The position numbers and the translations under genes are program-made. The notes beneath the pieces are model-generated. The model was not told the DNA's origin, did no database searches, and was given only the letters and a program-made list of their open reading frames with translations. A stretch of DNA of 64,000 nucleotides from Patiriisocius marinus (GTDB lineage Bacteria; Bacteroidota; Bacteroidia; Flavobacteriales; Flavobacteriaceae): positions 124,001 to 188,000 of the forward strand of contig NZ_BKCG01000006.1 of assembly GCF_008974325.1 (NCBI RefSeq), in the 5' to 3' direction. Positions 51,164 to 61,728 of the stretch are shown here, one piece after another. Within the stretch, counting starts at the first letter, position 1. Every line of letters starts with the position of its first letter.

Positions 51164-54100
51164 ATGAAAAAAATTAAATGCTTTCTATTCATTACACTTT
51201 CGTTTTTTACCAGCACAATTAGCGCACAAGATTTTAACGAGGTCATCAAAGCAGTCGCCTCAGATCGTGATACTGCTGACCAATTTGGTATTTCTATAAG
51301 TATCTCTGGTGACCGTGCCATTGTCGGAGCCGCATCTGAAGATGAAGATGCGATGGGCGGGAATACACTATCCAATGCTGGGTCTGCGTATATCTTTGAG
51401 CGTGATGGTTCGGGAAACTGGATTGAAGTTCAAAAATTAGTTGCAGCAGAGCGTAATTTTGGTGACAATTTCGGTGGATCTGTGAGTATCTCTGGCGACC
51501 AAGCCATCATTGGGGCTAAATATGAAGATGAAGATGCGATGGGCGGGAATACATTAAATAGCGCCGGGTCTGCGTATATTTTTGAGCGTGATGGGGCGGG
51601 AAACTGGATTGAGGTACAAAAACTGGCGGCGGCAGACCGTGGTACTGATGACTTATTTGGTGGATCTGTGAGTATCTCGGGGGACCTTGCCATCATTGGG
51701 GCTAGTTATGAAACTGAAGATGCGATGGGTGGGAATACACTTCCCGGAGCCGGTTCTGCATATATCTTTGAGCGCGATGGTGCGGGTAACTGGAATGAGG
51801 TACAAAAACTGGTTGCGGCAGACCGTAGTCCTAATGACTTATTTGGTAGATCCGTTAGTATCTCGGGGGACCTTGCCATCATTGGGGTTATGTTTGAAGA
51901 CGAAGATGCGATGGGCGGGAATACACTATTAAATGCTGGGTCTGCGTATATCTTTGAGCGTGATGGGGCTGGCGTCTGGTTTGAAGTACAAAAACTAGTC
52001 GCGGCAGACCGTGATGGTATTGACCAGTTTGGTTTTTCCGTGAGTATATCTGGCGACAGTACCATCATTGGGGCTTTCAATGAAGATGAAGATGCAATGG
52101 GTGGGAATACACTATTTGGAGCCGGAGCAGCCTATATATTTGAGCGCGACGGAGCTGGCAACTGGAATGAGGTACAAAAACTGGTCGCATCAGATCGTGA
52201 TTCTTTTGACCAGTTTGGTTATTCCGTGAGTATCTCTGGCGACAGTACCCTCATTGGGGCTAGTAGTGAAGATGAAGATGAGATGGGCGGAAATACACTA
52301 TTTGGAGCCGGTTCTGCGTATTTTTTTGAGACTGCTCCTCCTCATAATGTCATTGTATCTAGCGGTGATTTAATTTTTACAGACAATAATGATAGAGATG
52401 ATAATCTCACCATCGTTATTAACGGTGCAAATTACCGCATAACAGACCCTAGCAACTCGCTTATTGCAGGAATGGGAGCTACGCAAATAGATGCAAATAC
52501 AGTAGATGTTACAATAACATCAGTAACAGGAGACATTACCATAAATACCAATGGCGGTGATGACTCTTTAACCACAGATTTTTCTGGCGGAAATTTTCAA
52601 GACATCATTAATTATGATGGAGGGGCACAAAACAACACAAACCCTGGCGATATTTTAACCCTGCAAGGCGGTGGTACTTTTGCTACAGTGGAACATACGT
52701 TTACTAATGCAAGTGACGGTGGTGTTGCCGTATCAGGAAATGGTGCCATAAACTATGTAGGCTTAGAGCCTGTGATTGATAATTTAATGGTTGCAGACCG
52801 TATATTTACCTTCACGGGAGCAGATGAATCGATCTTCTTAGTAAATGAAGCAACAACAGGATCTAATATAATCGATAGTACTTTAGGTGAAAGCGTCACA
52901 TTTACCAACCCGACAAACAGTTTGACTATAAATACAGATATAAATGGAGGTTCTGGGACAGATAATATTGGTATTGGAGATATTGACGCTGCTTTTAATG
53001 CAGATTTAATAGTAAATTCTGGGCTTGAAATGGATCAAGTTAGTTTTTCGGGGTCGATAGATATAGGAACAGGGTCTTATTTTATTAATGCATACCGAAT
53101 TTTGGCCGTAGGAGCCCTTAGCACTTCTGGAACTGGTGAAATTAATTTAACGGCTTTGTCGCATATTACAAAATCGTCGCCGAATAATTTAACTTCAGAA
53201 AATGGTGATATAAACTTAAACAGTAATGCCTCAGGAATATCTACAGATACCGCCTATAATGCTATTGTTATTACTCAAGGTGAAATCGAAACCACAGGTA
53301 CAGGGAATATTAATATAACAGGGATAGAAGTATTAAATGGCACAGATAGTTTTAACTATGGTGTTGTAATAGCAAATGGTGGTAGCGTTCAAGCTACTGG
53401 CACAGGTTCAATTTTTATTAATGGTACAGGTGGTGACGGAACTGATAATAATGATGGTGTAAATATTCAAAATTCTGCGACCGTGCGTACAGTAAATGGA
53501 GACATTACTGTAATTGGCATATCTGGAACAGGGACCACAAATGATAATAATGGAATAAAAATAGTAGGGGCCACAGTAGAAAGCACAGGTACTGGTGTTA
53601 TCTCTATGAATGGAACATCTCTTGGAGTCTTAGAGAATAACAACGGAGTGTTAATTAACGGTGCAGGTACAAGTATAAACGCGGCTGGCGGGAATATTAA
53701 TATCACTGGCCAAGGGGCTATTGGCGCAATGGGTGATTTAAATAGTGGTATTCAAGTTTCAGATGGTGCTACTATAGAAAACATAGGAACAGGAGCAATA
53801 AATTTGACTGGAATAGGTGGAGATGGAAATAATAGTAACAATGGTGTGACTATAAATGGTGCGGGCACCGCTATAACTACCGTAAACGGTGGGATTACGT
53901 GTAATGGAACTTCTGGAGTTGGGGCTTTAGCTTATAATGATGGAATTAGAGTTGAAACTGGAGCTGTTGTAGAATCAACAGGTATGGGATTAATTACCAT
54001 GGATGGTATTTCAACAGAAAGTCAGCAACGCGGTAACGGTATTTCTATAACAAATGCAGGTTCAGAAGTAAGAACAAATGGAGGAGGTATAAGTTTAACG

Positions 54101-57100
54101 GGGCAAGGCGCCTTAATTAGTATAGGTCAGAGAAATTATGGTGTTGCTGTTTCTGATGATGCTTTAGTAAGTGATAGCAGCAGTGGAGACATCACTATAA
54201 ATGGTACTGGAGGTAATGGAAGCCAACTTAACTATGGTGTGTACTCTTTATTTGACGGTACTTTACAAGTAACTAATGGAAACTTACTTTTAAATGGTAC
54301 TAGCGGAAGTACAAGTACAACAAATAACAGCTATGCTATAGGTGTAGTCAATTCGAAAGCAGAGGCTATTGGAACAGGATCTATTACTATAAATGGTCAA
54401 GCCTCTGGAGGTGTGAATTCGGGATTAGGAGTACTTATTATTGGTGACACATCTATTGGTGCCACAACCGAAATTGTAACTGCTGGTGGTGGAATAAACA
54501 TAACAGGTCAAGGAGCCGGAACGGGTAACGATTGTTATGGTATGTATCTACTTGATGCAAGTATATTTGATACCGCTGGTGGAGATATTACTATTAATGG
54601 TACAGGAGCAAGTGGGGCTAATAACAACAGTATCGGCTTTGCGATTTCCGATGATTCTTCTGTTTCCACCACTGGAGGCGGTAATATTAATATTACAGGT
54701 ACCGCAGGAAATGCATTAAGTAGCGGAATTTATTTTGAAAACACAGATGTGCAAATTCTATCGAGCGGGACAACTACTTTAACAACAGCGATAGGACCAC
54801 TAGTTACTCCTGCTGGAATACCTGCAGCAAGTTTAATAGAAGGTACTACCGTTACCCTTATCGGTGAGTTACAACCCGGTAAAACAACACCTGGACTTGG
54901 ACAGCTTCCTATTACAGGCAACACCGTTCTAGCTGATAGTGCGATACTTTCAATCACAATTTCAGGCGAAATCACCCCAGGAACAGATTATGATCAACTA
55001 GCAGTTAATGGAACCGTAGATATATCTGACGCTACCTTAAATCTAATAGATGACATTGCGGTGCCTATAACTACAGCAGCAGAAATTATCCTTATCGATA
55101 ACGATGGCGCAGATGCAGTAATAGGAAATTTTAATGGCTTGCCTAATGGCGCTGCAATATTATTTAACAACCAATCATTTATAATTAATTATGATAGAGG
55201 CGATGGTAATGATGTTACCTTAACTGTAGGCGCACTCCCTACTGCCGTATGTCAAGATATAATTGTACAACTAGATGCTGCAGGTTCTGTTACAATATTG
55301 CCTATAGATGTAGATAATGGATCATCAGATCCTGATGGACCTGTAACCTTATCTATTGATATAGATACTTTTACTTGTACAGATATAGGTCCAAATATGG
55401 TAACACTAACAGTTACAGATAATACAGGAAGCACAGCAAGTTGTACAGCAATAGTTACGGTAGAAGATATGATAGCACCTATTGCCGTTTGTCAAAACAT
55501 AACAGTACAATTAGATGAATTTGGACAAGCAACCATAATCGCTAATGATGTAGATGGAGGCAGTACAGATAACTGCGGAAATATTACAACCACAATAGAT
55601 ATCACCACTTTTGATTGTAGTAATCTGGGCGATAACATAGTAACACTAACCGTTACCGATGATGCAGGACTTTCATCTACATGCACAGCAATAGTAACCG
55701 TAATAGATATACTACCACCTACTATTACTTGCCCAGAGTCGGTAGAAGCATTTACAGACTCAGATCAATGTACTGCTACTAATGTAGCATTAGGATCACC
55801 TGATGTTTTTGACAACTGTGACGTGATGAGTATTACTAATGATGCTCCTGCTGTTTACCCTATAGGAATCACTGTGGTGACCTGGACGGTAACAGATACT
55901 TCTGGTAATATAAACACTTGTTTACAAGAGGTAAGTATTACAGACAATGAGTTGCCAACAGCAGTTTGCGAAAACTTTACCATACAACTTGATGCCACTG
56001 GTATAGCAAGTATCTCTCCAGATGAACTTGATGGAGGCAGCACAGATAATTGTACTATCGCCAGTATTTACACAAGTCAAGACACATTTACTTGTGATGA
56101 TCTAGGCGATAACCTAGTTACTTTATTTGTAGAAGATGCCTCTGGCAATGTGCAAGAATGTACTGCTATCATTACCGTACAAGACATCATCCCTCCTACT
56201 CTTGTTTGTATGAACATTTCAGAAGAACTTGATGTAAACGGTATGGTTGTTCTAGATTATACACAACTTATAGATCCTGCAAGTACAGATAATTGTGGCA
56301 TAGTAGATGGCTTTTTAAGTATAAGTGAGTTTAACTGTACTAATATAGGTGACAATACAGTGACGCTAACCGTAGTTGACGCCTCTGGTAACGAGGCTAC
56401 CTGTACGGCTATTATTACTATCATTGACAATTCTGTCCCGGTGGCAAGCTGCCAGAACATCACAATAACACTTGACGATATGGGTATGGCTACTATCACG
56501 CCAGAGCAAATAGATGCAGGTAGCTATAATAACTGCGGAAATGTGACTTTATCAATTGACATGGACACTTTTGATTGCACTAATATAGGCGATAACATCG
56601 TGATACTTACCGTGACTAATGACAATGGCGCGATTGCTACTTGTGAGGCTACAGTAACAATAACCGAAGAAACCCTTCCAGAGGCAGTGTGCCAGAACAT
56701 CACTGTTTCACTTGATCCGGATGGCAACGTTACTATTTTAGCTTCAGATATAGATGGTGGTAGTACAGACAGTTGCGGAGCAGTTACGTTAACCATAGAT
56801 CAAGATAGTTTTGATTGTACTCATGTAGGTGAGAATGATGTGGTGTTAACAGTTACAGATACTAATGGAAATAGTTCAAGTTGTACAGCAGTGGTAACTA
56901 TAGAAGATGTTACACCACCAACAGCTATCTGCCAAAACATTACTATTGAATTAGATGAAAACGGTATGGCTGCAATAACAGCCCTAGATATTGATGGCGG
57001 AAGCACAGATCCTTGCGGTATCGCTACCACAGAAATTGATATCGACACTTTTGATTGTTCAAACTTAGGAGATAACAACGTAACACTTACTGTTACTGAT

Positions 57101-57913
57101 ATCAATGGAAACCAATCAAATTGTATTGCAATTGTCACAGTTATTGGGACTAGTGCTACACCAATTGCAGTTTGTCAAAACCTTACAGTTCCACTTGGTG
57201 CTGATGGTACAGCAACAATTGAAGCTTCTGCATTAAACGGAGGTTCTTCTGGAACCAGCTGCCCTGATAGTTATACCATAAGTATTGATACTTTTACTTG
57301 TGAAGATATCGGGACTCCTGTTCAAGTAGTATTTACAGTTACAAACGCACTTGGAGAAAGTGATAGTTGTGTTGCACTTGTAAATGTAGTTGACACCTTA
57401 GCTCCTGAAGTATTCTGCCCAGATGACCAAACAGTTATTTCTACAGGACCATATATGTTGCCAGATTATTTCGCAACTGGCGAAGCAATGGCTATTGATA
57501 ACTGTACAGATCCTGTTACTATTTTCGATCAAGAACCAAGTCCGGGAACTCCGCTTGAACAAGGGACCTACACAATTACACTTTCAGCGCAAGATTCGAA
57601 TGGCTTTGAAAATATATGTACGTTTGAGTTAACAGTAAATGACACTTTAGGAACAAATGATGTACAGCTAAACATAGCAACAGTACTACTCTATCCTAAT
57701 CCTGCAAATAACTTTATTACTATTAGCAACCCTCAATTAATCTCATTAGAGAAAATAACTATTTACGATTTAAATGGAAGAGTCGTTTTAACCGAAATTT
57801 TAAACAATATTGAAACAAGCACAATTGATGTTACATTATTACAAAGCGCAACATACTTAGTAACAATAGATGGTGATGCAGGGCAAATCACTAAACGATT
57901 AATTATAGAATAA
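51164..57913 (+). CDS. Giant T9SS surface protein with FG-GAP repeats, beta-strand repeat region and HYR-like domains
   Basis: The 2249-residue protein has a signal peptide (MKKIKCFLFITLSFF...SAQ). Six FG-GAP/integrin-alpha-like repeats of about 60 residues occupy about 26-389 (DQFGISISISGD; AYIFERDG). A region of about 392-1356 is rich in G/N/T and beta-strand repeats (TGTGNINITG; NGTGG) reminiscent of filamentous adhesin passengers. HYR-like cysteine-containing repeats run to about 2162, followed by a T9SS type A tail (LYPNPANNFITI). Its last HYR repeats are nearly identical in DNA to those of the preceding BspA-type gene. Adhesin function is inferred. The next gene starts only 50 bp downstream with only a weak hairpin between. 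Confidence 0.85.
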   Translation: MKKIKCFLFITLSFFTSTISAQDFNEVIKAVASDRDTADQFGISISISGDRAIVGAASEDEDAMGGNTLSNAGSAYIFERDGSGNWIEVQKLVAAERNFGDNFGGSVSISGDQAIIGAKYEDEDAMGGNTLNSAGSAYIFERDGAGNWIEVQKLAAADRGTDDLFGGSVSISGDLAIIGASYETEDAMGGNTLPGAGSAYIFERDGAGNWNEVQKLVAADRSPNDLFGRSVSISGDLAIIGVMFEDEDAMGGNTLLNAGSAYIFERDGAGVWFEVQKLVAADRDGIDQFGFSVSISGDSTIIGAFNEDEDAMGGNTLFGAGAAYIFERDGAGNWNEVQKLVASDRDSFDQFGYSVSISGDSTLIGASSEDEDEMGGNTLFGAGSAYFFETAPPHNVIVSSGDLIFTDNNDRDDNLTIVINGANYRITDPSNSLIAGMGATQIDANTVDVTITSVTGDITINTNGGDDSLTTDFSGGNFQDIINYDGGAQNNTNPGDILTLQGGGTFATVEHTFTNASDGGVAVSGNGAINYVGLEPVIDNLMVADRIFTFTGADESIFLVNEATTGSNIIDSTLGESVTFTNPTNSLTINTDINGGSGTDNIGIGDIDAAFNADLIVNSGLEMDQVSFSGSIDIGTGSYFINAYRILAVGALSTSGTGEINLTALSHITKSSPNNLTSENGDINLNSNASGISTDTAYNAIVITQGEIETTGTGNINITGIEVLNGTDSFNYGVVIANGGSVQATGTGSIFINGTGGDGTDNNDGVNIQNSATVRTVNGDITVIGISGTGTTNDNNGIKIVGATVESTGTGVISMNGTSLGVLENNNGVLINGAGTSINAAGGNINITGQGAIGAMGDLNSGIQVSDGATIENIGTGAINLTGIGGDGNNSNNGVTINGAGTAITTVNGGITCNGTSGVGALAYNDGIRVETGAVVESTGMGLITMDGISTESQQRGNGISITNAGSEVRTNGGGISLTGQGALISIGQRNYGVAVSDDALVSDSSSGDITINGTGGNGSQLNYGVYSLFDGTLQVTNGNLLLNGTSGSTSTTNNSYAIGVVNSKAEAIGTGSITINGQASGGVNSGLGVLIIGDTSIGATTEIVTAGGGINITGQGAGTGNDCYGMYLLDASIFDTAGGDITINGTGASGANNNSIGFAISDDSSVSTTGGGNINITGTAGNALSSGIYFENTDVQILSSGTTTLTTAIGPLVTPAGIPAASLIEGTTVTLIGELQPGKTTPGLGQLPITGNTVLADSAILSITISGEITPGTDYDQLAVNGTVDISDATLNLIDDIAVPITTAAEIILIDNDGADAVIGNFNGLPNGAAILFNNQSFIINYDRGDGNDVTLTVGALPTAVCQDIIVQLDAAGSVTILPIDVDNGSSDPDGPVTLSIDIDTFTCTDIGPNMVTLTVTDNTGSTASCTAIVTVEDMIAPIAVCQNITVQLDEFGQATIIANDVDGGSTDNCGNITTTIDITTFDCSNLGDNIVTLTVTDDAGLSSTCTAIVTVIDILPPTITCPESVEAFTDSDQCTATNVALGSPDVFDNCDVMSITNDAPAVYPIGITVVTWTVTDTSGNINTCLQEVSITDNELPTAVCENFTIQLDATGIASISPDELDGGSTDNCTIASIYTSQDTFTCDDLGDNLVTLFVEDASGNVQECTAIITVQDIIPPTLVCMNISEELDVNGMVVLDYTQLIDPASTDNCGIVDGFLSISEFNCTNIGDNTVTLTVVDASGNEATCTAIITIIDNSVPVASCQNITITLDDMGMATITPEQIDAGSYNNCGNVTLSIDMDTFDCTNIGDNIVILTVTNDNGAIATCEATVTITEETLPEAVCQNITVSLDPDGNVTILASDIDGGSTDSCGAVTLTIDQDSFDCTHVGENDVVLTVTDTNGNSSSCTAVVTIEDVTPPTAICQNITIELDENGMAAITALDIDGGSTDPCGIATTEIDIDTFDCSNLGDNNVTLTVTDINGNQSNCIAIVTVIGTSATPIAVCQNLTVPLGADGTATIEASALNGGSSGTSCPDSYTISIDTFTCEDIGTPVQVVFTVTNALGESDSCVALVNVVDTLAPEVFCPDDQTVISTGPYMLPDYFATGEAMAIDNCTDPVTIFDQEPSPGTPLEQGTYTITLSAQDSNGFENICTFELTVNDTLGTNDVQLNIATVLLYPNPANNFITISNPQLISLEKITIYDLNGRVVLTEILNNIETSTIDVTLLQSATYLVTIDGDAGQITKRLIIE
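51241..52330 (+). repeat. Six tandem FG-GAP repeats of about 180 bp
   Basis: Units begin with a D-R-x-x-x-D-x-F-G codon block and include AYIFERDGAGNW and EDEDAMGGNTL. Long DNA stretches such as GATGCGATGGGCGGGAATAC recur almost unchanged between units. The block is visibly richer in G and C than its neighbours. Confidence 0.88.
56941..57641 (+). repeat. 0.7-kb segment nearly identical to 48950-49650
   Basis: Second copy of the shared HYR-like 3' segment. Divergence rises sharply after 57641 in the T9SS tail and before 56941. Confidence 0.9.
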
Positions 57914-58891: not shown

Positions 58892-59569
58892 TTAATATGG
58901 AGAATCTAATTTTACAAGTTCGCGCTGAAGTGCAAAAACAACTAGTCCAGCAATATTTTTAGATTCGGTTTTAAGCAGTAAATTAGTTCTATGACCTTCC
59001 ACTGTACGTGGACTGATAAATAGTTTCTCAGCAATTTCGGGAGTTGTATGCTGACGACAAATAAGTTCTAACACCTCCATTTCACGTTTAGAAATAAAAC
59101 TAGTATCAAAAGGCGATTTTACTTTTCGTTCCCCAGTACTCAATAATCCTTCTTGAATGTATTTAAACACCGTATCATCGTAGTAAAAGCCTTTTGAAGC
59201 AACTTCTTTAATAGTTTTAATCATCAGCTTAGGTGTGCTATTTTTAGCTAAATAAGCCACTGCACCTATTGATATCATATTTAAGATAAATGGTTTACTA
59301 AAATAGCTAGTGAGTGCAATAATTCTAATTTCAGGGAATTCCTCTCTAATTATCTTAGTTACCTCAACACCATTTAATTCTGGCATTTTTAAAAGGGTTA
59401 TTACAATTTCAGGTAATGTACAGGTTTCTCTTAATTGAGTTACTAAATCTAACCCATCTGCTGCATCAAATAACACTTCAAAATTTTCATTTTTACTCAA
59501 TATTGCACGCAATCCTTGTCTAAACAATAACTCGTCATCTGCTAATGCTAATGTAATTTTACTGCTCAT
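58892..59569 (-). CDS. NarL/LuxR-type response regulator lacking the phospho-acceptor aspartate
   Basis: The 225-residue protein has a receiver domain (about 5-120) and a LuxR-type HTH (about 153-220; KREMEVLELICRQHTTPEIAEKL, SPRTVEGHRTN). The acidic pair D11-D12, T87 and K109 are conserved. The position that should hold the phosphorylated aspartate, three residues before MP, is L59 (VITLLKMPELNG), encoded by CTT. It therefore cannot be phosphorylated in the usual way and is an atypical receiver. It is the last gene of a four-gene operon, and overlaps the kinase gene by 11 bp. Confidence 0.88.
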   Translation of the reverse strand: MSSKITLALADDELLFRQGLRAILSKNENFEVLFDAADGLDLVTQLRETCTLPEIVITLLKMPELNGVEVTKIIREEFPEIRIIALTSYFSKPFILNMISIGAVAYLAKNSTPKLMIKTIKEVASKGFYYDDTVFKYIQEGLLSTGERKVKSPFDTSFISKREMEVLELICRQHTTPEIAEKLFISPRTVEGHRTNLLLKTESKNIAGLVVFALQRELVKLDSPY

Positions 59570-60350
59570 CTTTTATTGATTTTATTTCGAAGGTACTCCC
59601 TTCTCCTATTTTACTATAAATACCTAATGTTGCTTTTAATATTGCAGCTCTACTCTCTATATTTTGTAATCCAATACCCGAAATCTTCTCAGTTCGTTCA
59701 GTATTAAATCCTACACCATTATCTCTGAAAATAAGCTCAAAGCCTGGATTTAAATTTTTCATTTCAATATTAACTTGTGAAGCTCCGCCATGTCTAATAG
59801 CATTATTAAAGAGCTCTTGAACTATTCTAAAAATATGCAAACTATCATCTAATGAGATATCAGGCAAATCCTGTATTGTATGATGTATTTGTACTTTATT
59901 CGTTTTTAAAAAGTCTTCTACTAATTCCTCTAAAGCTACTTGTAAACCAAATTTATCCAGCACTGGCGGCAGTAAATCGTGCGCTATCCTTCGGGCGCTT
60001 TCTAAAATATTTGTTGTAATATTTAATATGTGATTTAAAGATGTTAGTTGATCTTCAGAATGTCTATCATCCTCAATTAACAAGTTAGTTGTAAGGCTTA
60101 CTAGATTTAACTTTGAACTAATTGCATCGTGCATATCTTGTGCAATACGCTGTCGTTCTTCTTCTTGTGTTGAAATTATCGCTTTAAGAACGTCTTTTTG
60201 ATTATTTAACTGCATTTCTATTTTTGATAACTGCTCTGCAACTATTCGTTTTCTTGAATAGAAAAAGAATAGCATCAACCCTGTTGTAAGAAGCACTGTA
60301 AACATAATCCCGTAAACGAGAAAAACAATTAGACTTTCTTGGCTTTCCAT
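59559..60350 (-). CDS. Membrane histidine kinase (HisKA_3 type)
   Basis: The 263-residue kinase has one N-terminal transmembrane helix (about 8-32), a short coiled-coil, and a HisKA_3 phosphorylation helix with H74 (RQRIAQDMHDAIS). A HATPase_c domain with the N box (LFNNAIRHGG) and G box (DNGVGFN) follows. All catalytic motifs are present, so the kinase looks active. With almost no external domain it probably senses through the preceding multi-pass membrane protein. It overlaps that gene by 22 bp and the regulator gene by 11 bp, indicating translational coupling. Confidence 0.9.
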   Translation of the reverse strand: MESQESLIVFLVYGIMFTVLLTTGLMLFFFYSRKRIVAEQLSKIEMQLNNQKDVLKAIISTQEEERQRIAQDMHDAISSKLNLVSLTTNLLIEDDRHSEDQLTSLNHILNITTNILESARRIAHDLLPPVLDKFGLQVALEELVEDFLKTNKVQIHHTIQDLPDISLDDSLHIFRIVQELFNNAIRHGGASQVNIEMKNLNPGFELIFRDNGVGFNTERTEKISGIGLQNIESRAAILKATLGIYSKIGEGSTFEIKSIKDEQ

Positions 60351-60994
60351 TTTGAAATATTAATTTTCCATTCAATAAAAATCACTATCTGTAATAAAAA
60401 ATAACTCACTACATTAATATCTGATATGTTACTGGTCGTTTCCTTACTTAGTATTTTATTATCAACATCATCTACTAATAGTGCGTAAAGCAAAAACACA
60501 AGGGAACTAATAGACAAATACACTAGTAATCCTCCACTAAAATATAAGTAATCCCCTTTATTACTTAATGAATTATATAGATGCATCATAATATATGCAA
60601 GTACTGGTATTGTAGCTATGAGTATTTCAGGAAGGTTGAAATAAGCAAAGTCCTCTGGCCAAATTAAATAATAAGCTAATAAAGTTATTAATACCAATAC
60701 TAATAATATGTTTACAACGTGTTTTTGTTTTTCAGTAAACAATGATTTATAAAAAAAAGATAAACAGACAAATTGAATAATTAAATAAACATGAAACAAA
60801 AAAAGATTATTCTCCCCTAAACTACTTAGATAAGATGAGACTAGTTGATTTGTACAAATTAAGGCTAAATAAATAGTCAAAATATTTAATGACCTTAATT
60901 TTTTAATATTATAGGCGCTATATAAATACAATAGCACATTTATCAACATTAATAATTCCCAAATAGAATCTACCAGTCCTAATAGTACTTTCAT
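60329..60994 (-). CDS. Multi-pass membrane protein, putative sensor in a two-component operon
   Basis: The 221-residue protein has about six to seven hydrophobic helices and a short basic C-terminus (NISKWKAKKV). Similarity to a named family was not recognised. It starts 3 bp after the small CPxxC protein and overlaps the histidine kinase by 22 bp. Because that kinase has little sensory domain of its own, a role as membrane sensor or partner is plausible but inferred. Confidence 0.75.
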   Translation of the reverse strand: MKVLLGLVDSIWELLMLINVLLYLYSAYNIKKLRSLNILTIYLALICTNQLVSSYLSSLGENNLFLFHVYLIIQFVCLSFFYKSLFTEKQKHVVNILLVLVLITLLAYYLIWPEDFAYFNLPEILIATIPVLAYIMMHLYNSLSNKGDYLYFSGGLLVYLSISSLVFLLYALLVDDVDNKILSKETTSNISDINVVSYFLLQIVIFIEWKINISKWKAKKV

Positions 60995-60997
60995 AAT

Positions 60998-61432
60998 TTA
61001 GTTATGATACAAAGAGCTATTTACATTACAAGTTTTAGGACAAGGTCTTCCAAAATCAAATGCTCCACTTCCAGATAAAGGAACTTGAGGTTCATCTTTA
61101 CTGTTTTTTACCTGATCTTGAAATTCTCCTTTTACATCTACTGTACCTACCATTACTAATTTTTCTTCCTCTTCCCCAGTAATACGATCTGGACCTATTG
61201 CCATATATGCTCTAATACCATAAACAGCAGGATTGCTATGAACCACAAGCCCACCTTTACCGTCACTTACTAATACCCCTATCTCTTCTAACAAACTTAA
61301 AAGATCTGTATTAGGAATTAAAAAAGCTTTAGAATGCGAAGGGTATTTTGTCTGCCACGCTTTTGTCCAATTTTCAGCATCATCAATTGGCACTCCATTT
61401 TTAGGTAATTTACTGTCTGAGTTAGTTGTCAT
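60998..61432 (-). CDS. Small uncharacterised protein with C-terminal CPxxC motif
   Basis: The 144-residue protein has no signal peptide or membrane segment. Landmarks are WTKAWQTKYP, the helix AFLIPNTDLLSLLEEIG, the strand pair GIRAYMAIGPD and EKLVMVGTVDV, and a C-terminal tail with CPKTC at 131-135. I recall similar short proteins (AF.I...L..LL, GIR.Y, L..VG, then CPxxC) as frequent in Bacteroidota and unnamed, but have no search to confirm. It is the first gene of the operon with the membrane protein, kinase and atypical regulator. Function unknown; the tail could bind metal or form a disulfide. Confidence 0.75.
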   Translation of the reverse strand: MTTNSDSKLPKNGVPIDDAENWTKAWQTKYPSHSKAFLIPNTDLLSLLEEIGVLVSDGKGGLVVHSNPAVYGIRAYMAIGPDRITGEEEEKLVMVGTVDVKGEFQDQVKNSKDEPQVPLSGSGAFDFGRPCPKTCNVNSSLYHN

Positions 61433-61728
61433 AATTATAATAATTTGTTGGTTAATTGTGACTCCAAGTTCTTAAAAATAACTCGTATAAAAAATTCAAT
61501 TATACAAATTAGGTATTTACACCTGATTGTACTTATAAAAGGTGATTTCTAGCTACTAAATATTGCACATTACAAAATAAAACCTTATCTTCTGTAAACC
61601 AAATGATTACAAAAAACAAGTAGTTATACCTATTGACATAAGCGTTTAAATTCGCTATTTATGCTAAGCACTAATTTGTACTATTACAGATATAACGGAA
61701 TAGCTATTTTTCAACTAACTATCCAATT

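Follow-up and report, generated by a model that had tools for sequence, protein, structure and literature searches.

Gene content and organization of the locus

The window analysed here is a stretch of 64,000 nucleotides from the flavobacterium Patiriisocius marinus (contig NZ_BKCG01000006.1, positions 124,001 to 188,000). Four co-directional genes of its minus strand encode a small protein, a membrane protein with seven predicted transmembrane helices (7-TM), a histidine kinase (HK) and a NarL-type response regulator (RR). As the first-pass annotation of this DNA had described, a 3-bp gap is followed by overlaps of 22 and 11 bp, which was confirmed on the coordinates of the open reading frames (ORFs). 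The features of the locus are the following (aa, amino acids; PWM, position weight matrix score; AF2, AlphaFold2):

60998..61432, minus strand: small protein of 144 aa, first gene of the operon, with the C-terminus ..GRPCPKTCNVNSSLYHN; homologues hold the same place
61001..61060, minus strand: C-terminal tail FDFGRPCPKTCNVNSSLYHN of the small protein, the proposed recognition element, with a conserved frame and a hypervariable CPxxC middle
60329..60994, minus strand: 7-TM membrane protein of 221 aa, the proposed receptor (AF2 model)
59559..60350, minus strand: HK of 263 aa, HisKA_3 and HATPase_c domains with one N-terminal hydrophobic segment
58892..59569, minus strand: NarL-type RR of 225 aa, Response_reg (REC) and GerE domains, supported by synteny
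59393..59395, minus strand: CTT (Leu) codon at the phospho-acceptor site of the RR, where 145/145 aligned relatives have Asp
61504..61526, minus strand: operator-like near-palindrome TCAGGTGTAAATACCTAATTTGT, near edge 72 bp upstream of the ATG of the small gene, PWM 18.8
61611..61633, minus strand: second, weaker palindrome copy, PWM 15.4, under the highest shuffle score (16.3)

Neither the small nor the membrane protein of the window has a match at the cut-offs of Pfam or NCBIfam. The small protein was left nameless at first reading and remains so, as it reaches no curated family cut-off and no library searched names a CPxxC-tail family. PADLOC returned no family for the small protein, the 7-TM protein or the kinase, and two weak matches for the helix-turn-helix part of the RR.

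The HK contains the HisKA_3 domain at residues 65-131, followed by HATPase_c, and a hydrophobic N-terminal segment at about residues 8-31 (by eye). No sensor domain was matched in Pfam or NCBIfam, which agrees with the initial description of a kinase with nearly no sensory domain. The phospho-accepting His and the ATPase boxes are present in the window HK, and this His is kept in all of the 147 aligned kinases. The protein also resembles the UhpB and LiaS models, under their cut-offs.

The receiver was aligned with those of 145 RR matches (above 120 bits, 180-270 aa; some genomes entered twice). Residue 59 is the phospho-acceptor position occupied by Leu in the window, and three RR copies of the same genus carry GAT or GAC at this codon. 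The other acidic, Thr/Ser and Lys positions of the receiver are retained. The change from GAT to CTT corresponds to two substitutions and could be a true loss, a change to phosphorylation-independent action or an assembly error; judging by this codon, the final phosphorylation step is probably lost or altered in the genome of the window. Since every aligned relative has Asp, the atypical receiver is private to this genome and no part of the system. The atypical regulator announced by the first-pass annotation is thus present in the window sequence and does not hold as a feature of the system.

Conservation of the four-gene unit

Relatives of the small protein were searched in a family sample of 199 genomes with the window protein as query (E<=0.01). 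They are carried by 28 other genomes; 27 of their 28 loci show the full order small-membrane-HK-RR, two of them with extra small or membrane copies, and the 28th ends at a contig end. Profile searches of 246 genomes order-wide and 395 phylum-wide (samples that overlap each other and the family sample) gave small-protein matches in 29 and 35 genomes, respectively. Among the loci L093-L134, small, HK and RR genes are ordered on one strand in 42 out of 42, and the 7-TM profile also matches 34 of them. In the remaining eight, the 7-TM position is occupied by an ORF of 209-229 aa, multi-TM in appearance. In L126, the 7-TM match precedes the small gene, which is followed by another hydrophobic ORF. 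The RR is displaced in L135 and L140 meets a contig end; the candidate locus L136 turned out to encode a secreted protein and was discarded as a false positive.

A scan of named genomes, some of them also in the sampled sets, used an alignment of nine members as query and found 101 loci, of which 80 were kept; the same scan with the window's small protein as single sequence gave no confirmed relative. All four genes are in order in 75 of the 80 loci, the other five being cut by contig ends, and nine of the 75 show an extra small or 7-TM copy or a split kinase frame. The median intergene gaps are 4, -4 and 1 bp. The 7-TM protein is encoded as its own gene in 79 of the 80 loci, that is, in those that reach it.

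All these loci were found via the small protein, and the reverse search was done with the 7-TM profile. It matches 39 of the 199 family genomes, including 32 of the 33 that carry the small protein, so that small-protein homologues scattered without the membrane protein, a situation named beforehand as speaking against a unit, did not occur in this sample. In the 33rd genome, G068, the small-protein match is weak (E 5.9e-4) and diverged multi-TM-looking ORFs adjoin the small genes. This genome displays an expanded array small-TM-TM-small-TM-TM-kinase (L235, 1-4368; TM by eye), in which the tails have lost both Cys and end with PPQANYPQ and PPGQPYPN.

Seven genomes outside the 33 match the 7-TM profile, which indicates that 7-TM proteins of this family extend a little beyond the unit. 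G072 contains 7-TM-HK-RR beside a phage tail-Collar gene, G193 contains 7-TM-HK-RR without a CP-tail gene, and G143 contains a second subtype whose first gene ends with CPPTCPEE; in the last four (G028, G033, G097 and G159), the fetched stretch includes a 7-TM gene and lacks any match for HK or RR. Paralogous 7-TM genes are also found at other loci (L224-L229), with or without HK and RR and with no CP-tail protein; in L224-L226 and L229 they come directly after a gene whose product starts with a signal-like stretch and SYILIPMDA. The diverged second subtype (L232, 4261-4959; L233, 4236-4958) comprises proteins of 232-240 aa that end with CPPTCPEE or CPPTC and precede 7-TM-HK-RR; about 85-115 bp upstream of them lies a weaker palindrome.

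The four genes form a conserved signalling unit across the Bacteroidota, and their recurrence is not due to chance. The proposal that they belong together, made from the window alone, is borne out by the family and named-genome loci.

The small protein and its C-terminal tail

The small proteins are mostly about 110-155 aa long, with a predicted folded body. The AF2 model (predicted local distance difference test, pLDDT, 84) consists of two helices and a sheet. A fold search in the PDB gave no match at E<=0.001; the best E value was 0.19, and the top matches (a PH-domain/Rac1 complex and the CaMKII hub) were rejected as insignificant. Sequence-profile searches of the PDB gave no convincing match.

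The C-terminus follows the pattern ..YDFTxPCPxxCDxxSPLN, a conserved frame around a hypervariable pair xx. Among 145 distinct proteins, 127 tails could be scored and 18 fell outside the pattern. The segment YDFTxPCPxxCD is almost invariant in the 127 tails at its D, at both P and at the C positions, and strongly conserved over the remainder of the frame. The entropies are 3.4, 2.3 and 3.6 bits for the residue preceding PCP and the two residues within CPxxC. Both Cys are present in 115 of the 127 scorable tails; at least 12 have lost one or both with the frame kept, for example ..EPCPPASDPESPLN in an intact operon, and the second Cys is also missing in several of the 18 unscored tails (e.g. L099 and L108). 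In 14 whole genomes, all matches of the tail profile (E<=0.01) are at the operon locus; a role of the CP-tail as a general sorting signal, which was considered, is not supported by this confinement. The second-subtype tail of G179 (L233) was not recovered by this profile, so that diverged tails could escape detection.

In five loci (L107, L121, L122, L234 and L298), the gene at the first position has a lipoprotein-like N-terminus (signal by eye) together with the same domain or tail, which places the domain of the small protein outside the cytoplasm in these versions. In other loci, the operon is flanked by lipoprotein-like relatives that have two domains and a similar tail. In L039 (11895-12938), the small domain is fused behind an N-terminal region of about 200 residues with a weak thaumatin match (E 0.0037).

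The seven-helix membrane protein

The AF2 model of the membrane protein, based on 65 sequences, displays seven long helices with a pLDDT of 93.2. The loop charges predict an outer N-terminus and an inner C-terminus, the inner loops and the C-terminus being rich in K and R. The outer halves of the helices are more variable than the inner ones (mean entropy 2.18 vs 1.75 bits, P 0.002, 65 sequences), and this holds for five of the seven helices.

The Pfam model 7TMR-DISM_7TM gives weak matches in ten of the 65 aligned sequences (best E 2.7e-5), L141 scoring 13.9 bits for a cut-off of 29, and no match in the window protein. No AgrB, peptidase or protease family was matched in Pfam or NCBIfam, nor in a profile check of the 65 aligned sequences. 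The fold search reached a best E of 0.05, with chains of G protein-coupled receptors and rhodopsins and TM-scores up to 0.58; we read these matches of the model as reflecting the common seven-helix topology only.

Coupled variation of the tail and the 7-TM protein

As judged from the alignments, the tail and the 7-TM protein vary together, with exceptions that are given below. One case is represented by two metagenome-assembled genomes (MAGs) of Flavobacteriaceae, L158 and L160, where the identity is 1.00 for the HK, 0.98 for the RR (cut at a contig end in L160) and 0.98 for the body of the small protein. The 7-TM proteins are only 0.49 and 0.50 identical in their N- and C-terminal halves, and the tails carry CPPNC and CPTYC. 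Starting at the end of the small gene, the nucleotide identity drops from about 1.0 to about 0.6; it stays low through the 7-TM gene and is back at 0.93-1.0 at the HK. An upstream flank is 93% identical. A third MAG, L155, combines the upstream insertion of L160 with the 7-TM type of L158 (its 7-TM gene is cut at a contig end), and this mixture indicates that types are exchanged. Two of the three contigs carry this insertion, of about 2 kb with an ORF of 654 or 649 aa, immediately before the operon.

A similar situation is observed between Aquimarina amphilecti (L168) and A. latercula (L172). The HK, the RR and the small body are 0.95, 0.96 and 0.94 identical, and the 7-TM proteins 0.96 in the C-terminal half and 0.59 in the N-terminal half; the tails of both small paralogues are altered alike, D to N and S to E. 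Within the genus of the window, the HK of the window is 0.59-0.62 identical to those of L137, L138 and L030. With L137, the 7-TM identity is 0.65/0.71 for the two halves and the tails have the frame FDFGxPCPxxCNxNSSLYH in common, xx being KT in the window and VY in L137. With L138 and L030, whose frame is FDFTxPCPxxCDxxSPLNHG, the 7-TM identity is 0.38-0.39.

Two comparisons extend these cases. Among 30 non-overlapping close pairs of loci, the 12 pairs with the same xx exceed the 7-TM identity predicted from HK, RR and small body, and the 18 others stay below it (permutation P 0.0095). Single-domain paralogues of one genome carry the same xx in 7 of 8 cases vs 2.4% of random locus pairs (permutation P 0.0001) and 7% among 19 Aquimarina loci; in this comparison, the genomes of L172 and L284 are nearly identical and several Aquimarina pairs come from one old duplication. 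The bodies of the paralogues are 44-51% identical in the five genomes measured. Gene conversion may have contributed to the matching tails of paralogues. Codons differ inside matched tails (L168, Ser AGT vs TCT), and the L172 paralogues have several changes in common.

Upstream palindrome and phage tail-Collar genes

Of 165 small genes, 51, including that of the window, have upstream a near-palindrome of consensus nCAGGTAnAAATACCTGnTTTTA that scores over the 1% shuffle threshold; for 37 of these sites, the far end lies 50-125 bp away from the start codon. The PWM score of the window site compares with a 1% shuffle threshold of 11.8 and exceeds the highest shuffle, and the site is one of two exact pattern matches genome-wide. 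In seven loci of one genus (L103, L105, L110, L112, L113, L117 and L118), the palindrome is downstream of the RR instead. The promoter pattern TTTG-N17-21-TAnnTTTG was found neither before the small gene of the window nor in the 26 intergenic regions scanned.

Phage tail-Collar genes (Pfam PF07484; E 6.8e-30 for the neighbour of L031) adjoin 42 of the 156 fetched loci scanned (some genomes appear twice); in 37 of these loci, the Collar gene lies upstream in divergent orientation. Among the family genomes, 19 of the 33 that carry the small protein have a Collar gene, vs 24 of the 166 that lack it (Fisher P 6e-7). The association of the palindrome with a Collar neighbour is near-perfect (37/38 vs 14/122 loci) and partly circular, because the palindrome model was built on 18 sites at loci with a divergent Collar gene. 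The palindrome is also found in the genus of the window without Collar neighbours, and none was seen at the Collar genes in four genomes that lack the small protein.

The genome of the window has a single Collar gene, on another contig (L222, 6594-7525; G000 contig C9). It comes between a 125-aa ORF without a Pfam family and a 1608-aa ORF with a signal-like N-terminus, and no palindrome was seen at this place.

Exact palindrome matches number 0-5 per genome in eight genomes, 24 in total vs 12 for a reversed-pattern control, and no further operon-linked target emerged from these genomes. The palindrome recurs in two genomes each before an 87-aa ORF (L300/L320), inside an ORF of about 300 aa (L305/L318) and between convergent ORFs (L303/L309), three places apparently unrelated to the operon.

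In the window, the region 51164-57913 encodes a protein of 2249 aa with FG-GAP and HYR repeats and a Por secretion tail, on the strand opposite to the operon and separated from it by a pseudouridine-synthase gene.

Proposed mechanism and alternative explanations

We give an even chance to the reading that the unit is a four-gene signalling system across the Bacteroidota with a polymorphic signal-receptor pair. After export of the small protein, the 7-TM protein would recognise the C-terminal tail, as part of the protein or as a cleaved peptide, most likely at its own outer face. The 7-TM protein would act within the membrane as the missing sensor of the kinase with one transmembrane segment, and the kinase would phosphorylate the NarL-type regulator. 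The latter may act on the operon and, where present, on the divergent tail-Collar genes via the CAGGTAnAAATACCTG palindrome. The invariant kinase beside a variable 7-TM protein suggests that the 7-TM protein, and not the kinase, would read the tail. The ligand-sensing relay suggested at first reading is likely.

Recognition on the outer face is favoured, at roughly even probability, because the outer helix halves vary more and because the lipoprotein-like versions of the small protein sit outside. Variable outer and conserved inner halves are as expected for recognition outside and coupling to the kinase inside.

Several observations weigh against this signal-receptor reading. A conserved outer ligand pocket in the 7-TM protein is ruled out, the inner helix halves being more conserved, and most small proteins have no signal peptide by eye. 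Some pairs with differing tails have similar 7-TM proteins (L189/L209, 0.86; L198/L212, 0.75; L152/L154, 0.75), and some with the same xx have a low 7-TM identity (L195/L205, 0.69; L188/L287, 0.66; L108/L110, 0.62). The half-to-half gap of the 7-TM protein is 0.109 in same-tail and different-tail pairs alike, so that the N-terminal half is not singled out, and the 7-TM differences between L168 and L172 are about even, 24 outside and 20 inside. The xx of the paralogues in L054 are unmatched; among two-domain lipoproteins, the tail matches in two of five, and four more next to the operon (near L034, L195, L205 and L199) are unmatched. The pair tests carry no tree correction, and the raw contrast between same-tail and different-tail pairs is confounded by kinship (mean HK 0.89 vs 0.80). 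In addition, the tail adjoins the 7-TM gene and a single recombination tract can move both. Finally, the palindrome was not found as modelled at 114 of the 165 small genes.

The main rival, which we regard as rather unlikely, is that of a cytosolic adaptor: the small protein would stay inside and sense an internal ligand, its tail docking on the inner face of its own 7-TM protein, and the coevolution of both would only maintain the specificity of the pair. The coupling of tail and 7-TM protein is expected equally under this explanation, and the scarcity of visible signal peptides, the K/R-rich inner loops and C-terminus and the L168/L172 differences, not concentrated outside, are in its favour. 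It is opposed by the variable helix halves, which are the outer ones, and by the lipoprotein-like signal on the first protein in five loci. The gene content (precursor, membrane protein, kinase and regulator) also resembles that of agr, and in a second rival the 7-TM protein would process or export the tail in the manner of AgrB and the kinase would be the receptor. This is improbable: the kinase lacks a sensor domain and shows 100% identity between L158 and L160, whose tails and 7-TM proteins differ, and the 7-TM protein matches no protease family.

The first-pass annotation had also considered a redox relay, in which the CPxxC pair would form a disulfide or bind a metal and signal the redox state. 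Although both Cys are found in most scorable tails, this is unlikely as a general mechanism, and we judge it quite improbable, because CPxxC corresponds to a Cx3C spacing and not to CxxC, and because Cys are lost in tails that keep the frame, in intact operons. Least credible of all would be an ordinary orphan two-component operon with drift of the tail and horizontal replacement of the 7-TM gene, without any relation between tail and receptor. The recombination around the locus in L155, L158 and L160, the disregard of phylogeny in the pair tests and the exceptions to the coupling go in this direction, but the small body and the kinase are 94-100% identical while tail and 7-TM protein change, and the paralogue tails match.

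Comparison with known systems and significance

In agreement with the first reading, no described system of this make-up was recognised in a literature search of titles and abstract openings. By its presumed working principle, the system resembles agr and ComQXPA, and by its parts neither of them. The agr quorum sensing of staphylococci is introduced as 'highly conserved but polymorphic' in an abstract (PMC10482373). Both AgrBDCA and the present locus are four-gene operons of a small protein, a membrane protein, a kinase and a regulator, with a signal-receptor pair that is polymorphic in agr and appears so here. The agr locus has a hypervariable region with conserved flanks, and such an arrangement of signal and candidate receptor is found here, with exceptions. 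Here, however, the small protein has a predicted folded body and is mostly longer than a hundred residues, the membrane protein is a 7-TM protein and the varying part, no AgrB-type processing protein was recognised, the HisKA_3 kinase lacks a sensor and is paired with a NarL-type regulator, and the phylum is Bacteroidota.

ComQXPA of Bacillus is presented, in the opening of an abstract, as a pre-peptide signal, a kinase and a regulator within a four-gene locus (PMC4008528). The common point is the grouping of signal, kinase and regulator in one such locus; in contrast, the present system has no isoprenyl transferase and its proposed receptor is separate from the kinase. ComQXPA is polymorphic and has a NarL-type regulator.

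A seven-TM sensor linked to a kinase is also known from 7TMR-DISM and LytS-type proteins, such as the 7-TM receptor kinase BtsS (PMC10653868, as stated in the abstract opening). The seven predicted helices are a likeness; the differences are that the 7-TM protein is here a separate gene with no fused extracellular or signalling domain and that the curated 7TMR-DISM cut-off is not reached. A signalling domain fused to the 7-TM region defines the 7TMR-DISM proteins. In the pairs LiaF-LiaS, BceB-BceS and UhpC-UhpB, a kinase with minimal input uses a separate membrane protein as sensor, which is the arrangement proposed here; none of them is known to have a small protein with a variable tail. The invariant CxxC pair of thiol redox sensors is not found here. 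Of the hallmarks of HisKA_3/NarL two-component systems, the phospho-His and the ATPase boxes are present, and the receiver Asp is present in the relatives and not in the window copy.

Polymorphism of protein- or peptide-based signals and their receptors is best known from Gram-positive bacteria. It is possible, at somewhat less than an even chance, that the locus represents a pheromone or self-recognition system, not described before and spread across the Bacteroidota. In it, a dedicated 7-TM protein would read the variable tail of a folded protein and drive a sensor-less kinase, with tail and 7-TM protein passed on together in matched and exchangeable types. If the tail and the 7-TM protein are signal and receptor, the Bacteroidota would possess a cell-to-cell recognition with a readable specificity code, and naturally occurring pairs of alleles, in the L158/L160 MAGs and in A. 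amphilecti and A. latercula, would make this recognition directly testable. This would suggest a role for the family of small CPxxC-tail proteins and would link it to bacterial phage-tail Collar proteins.

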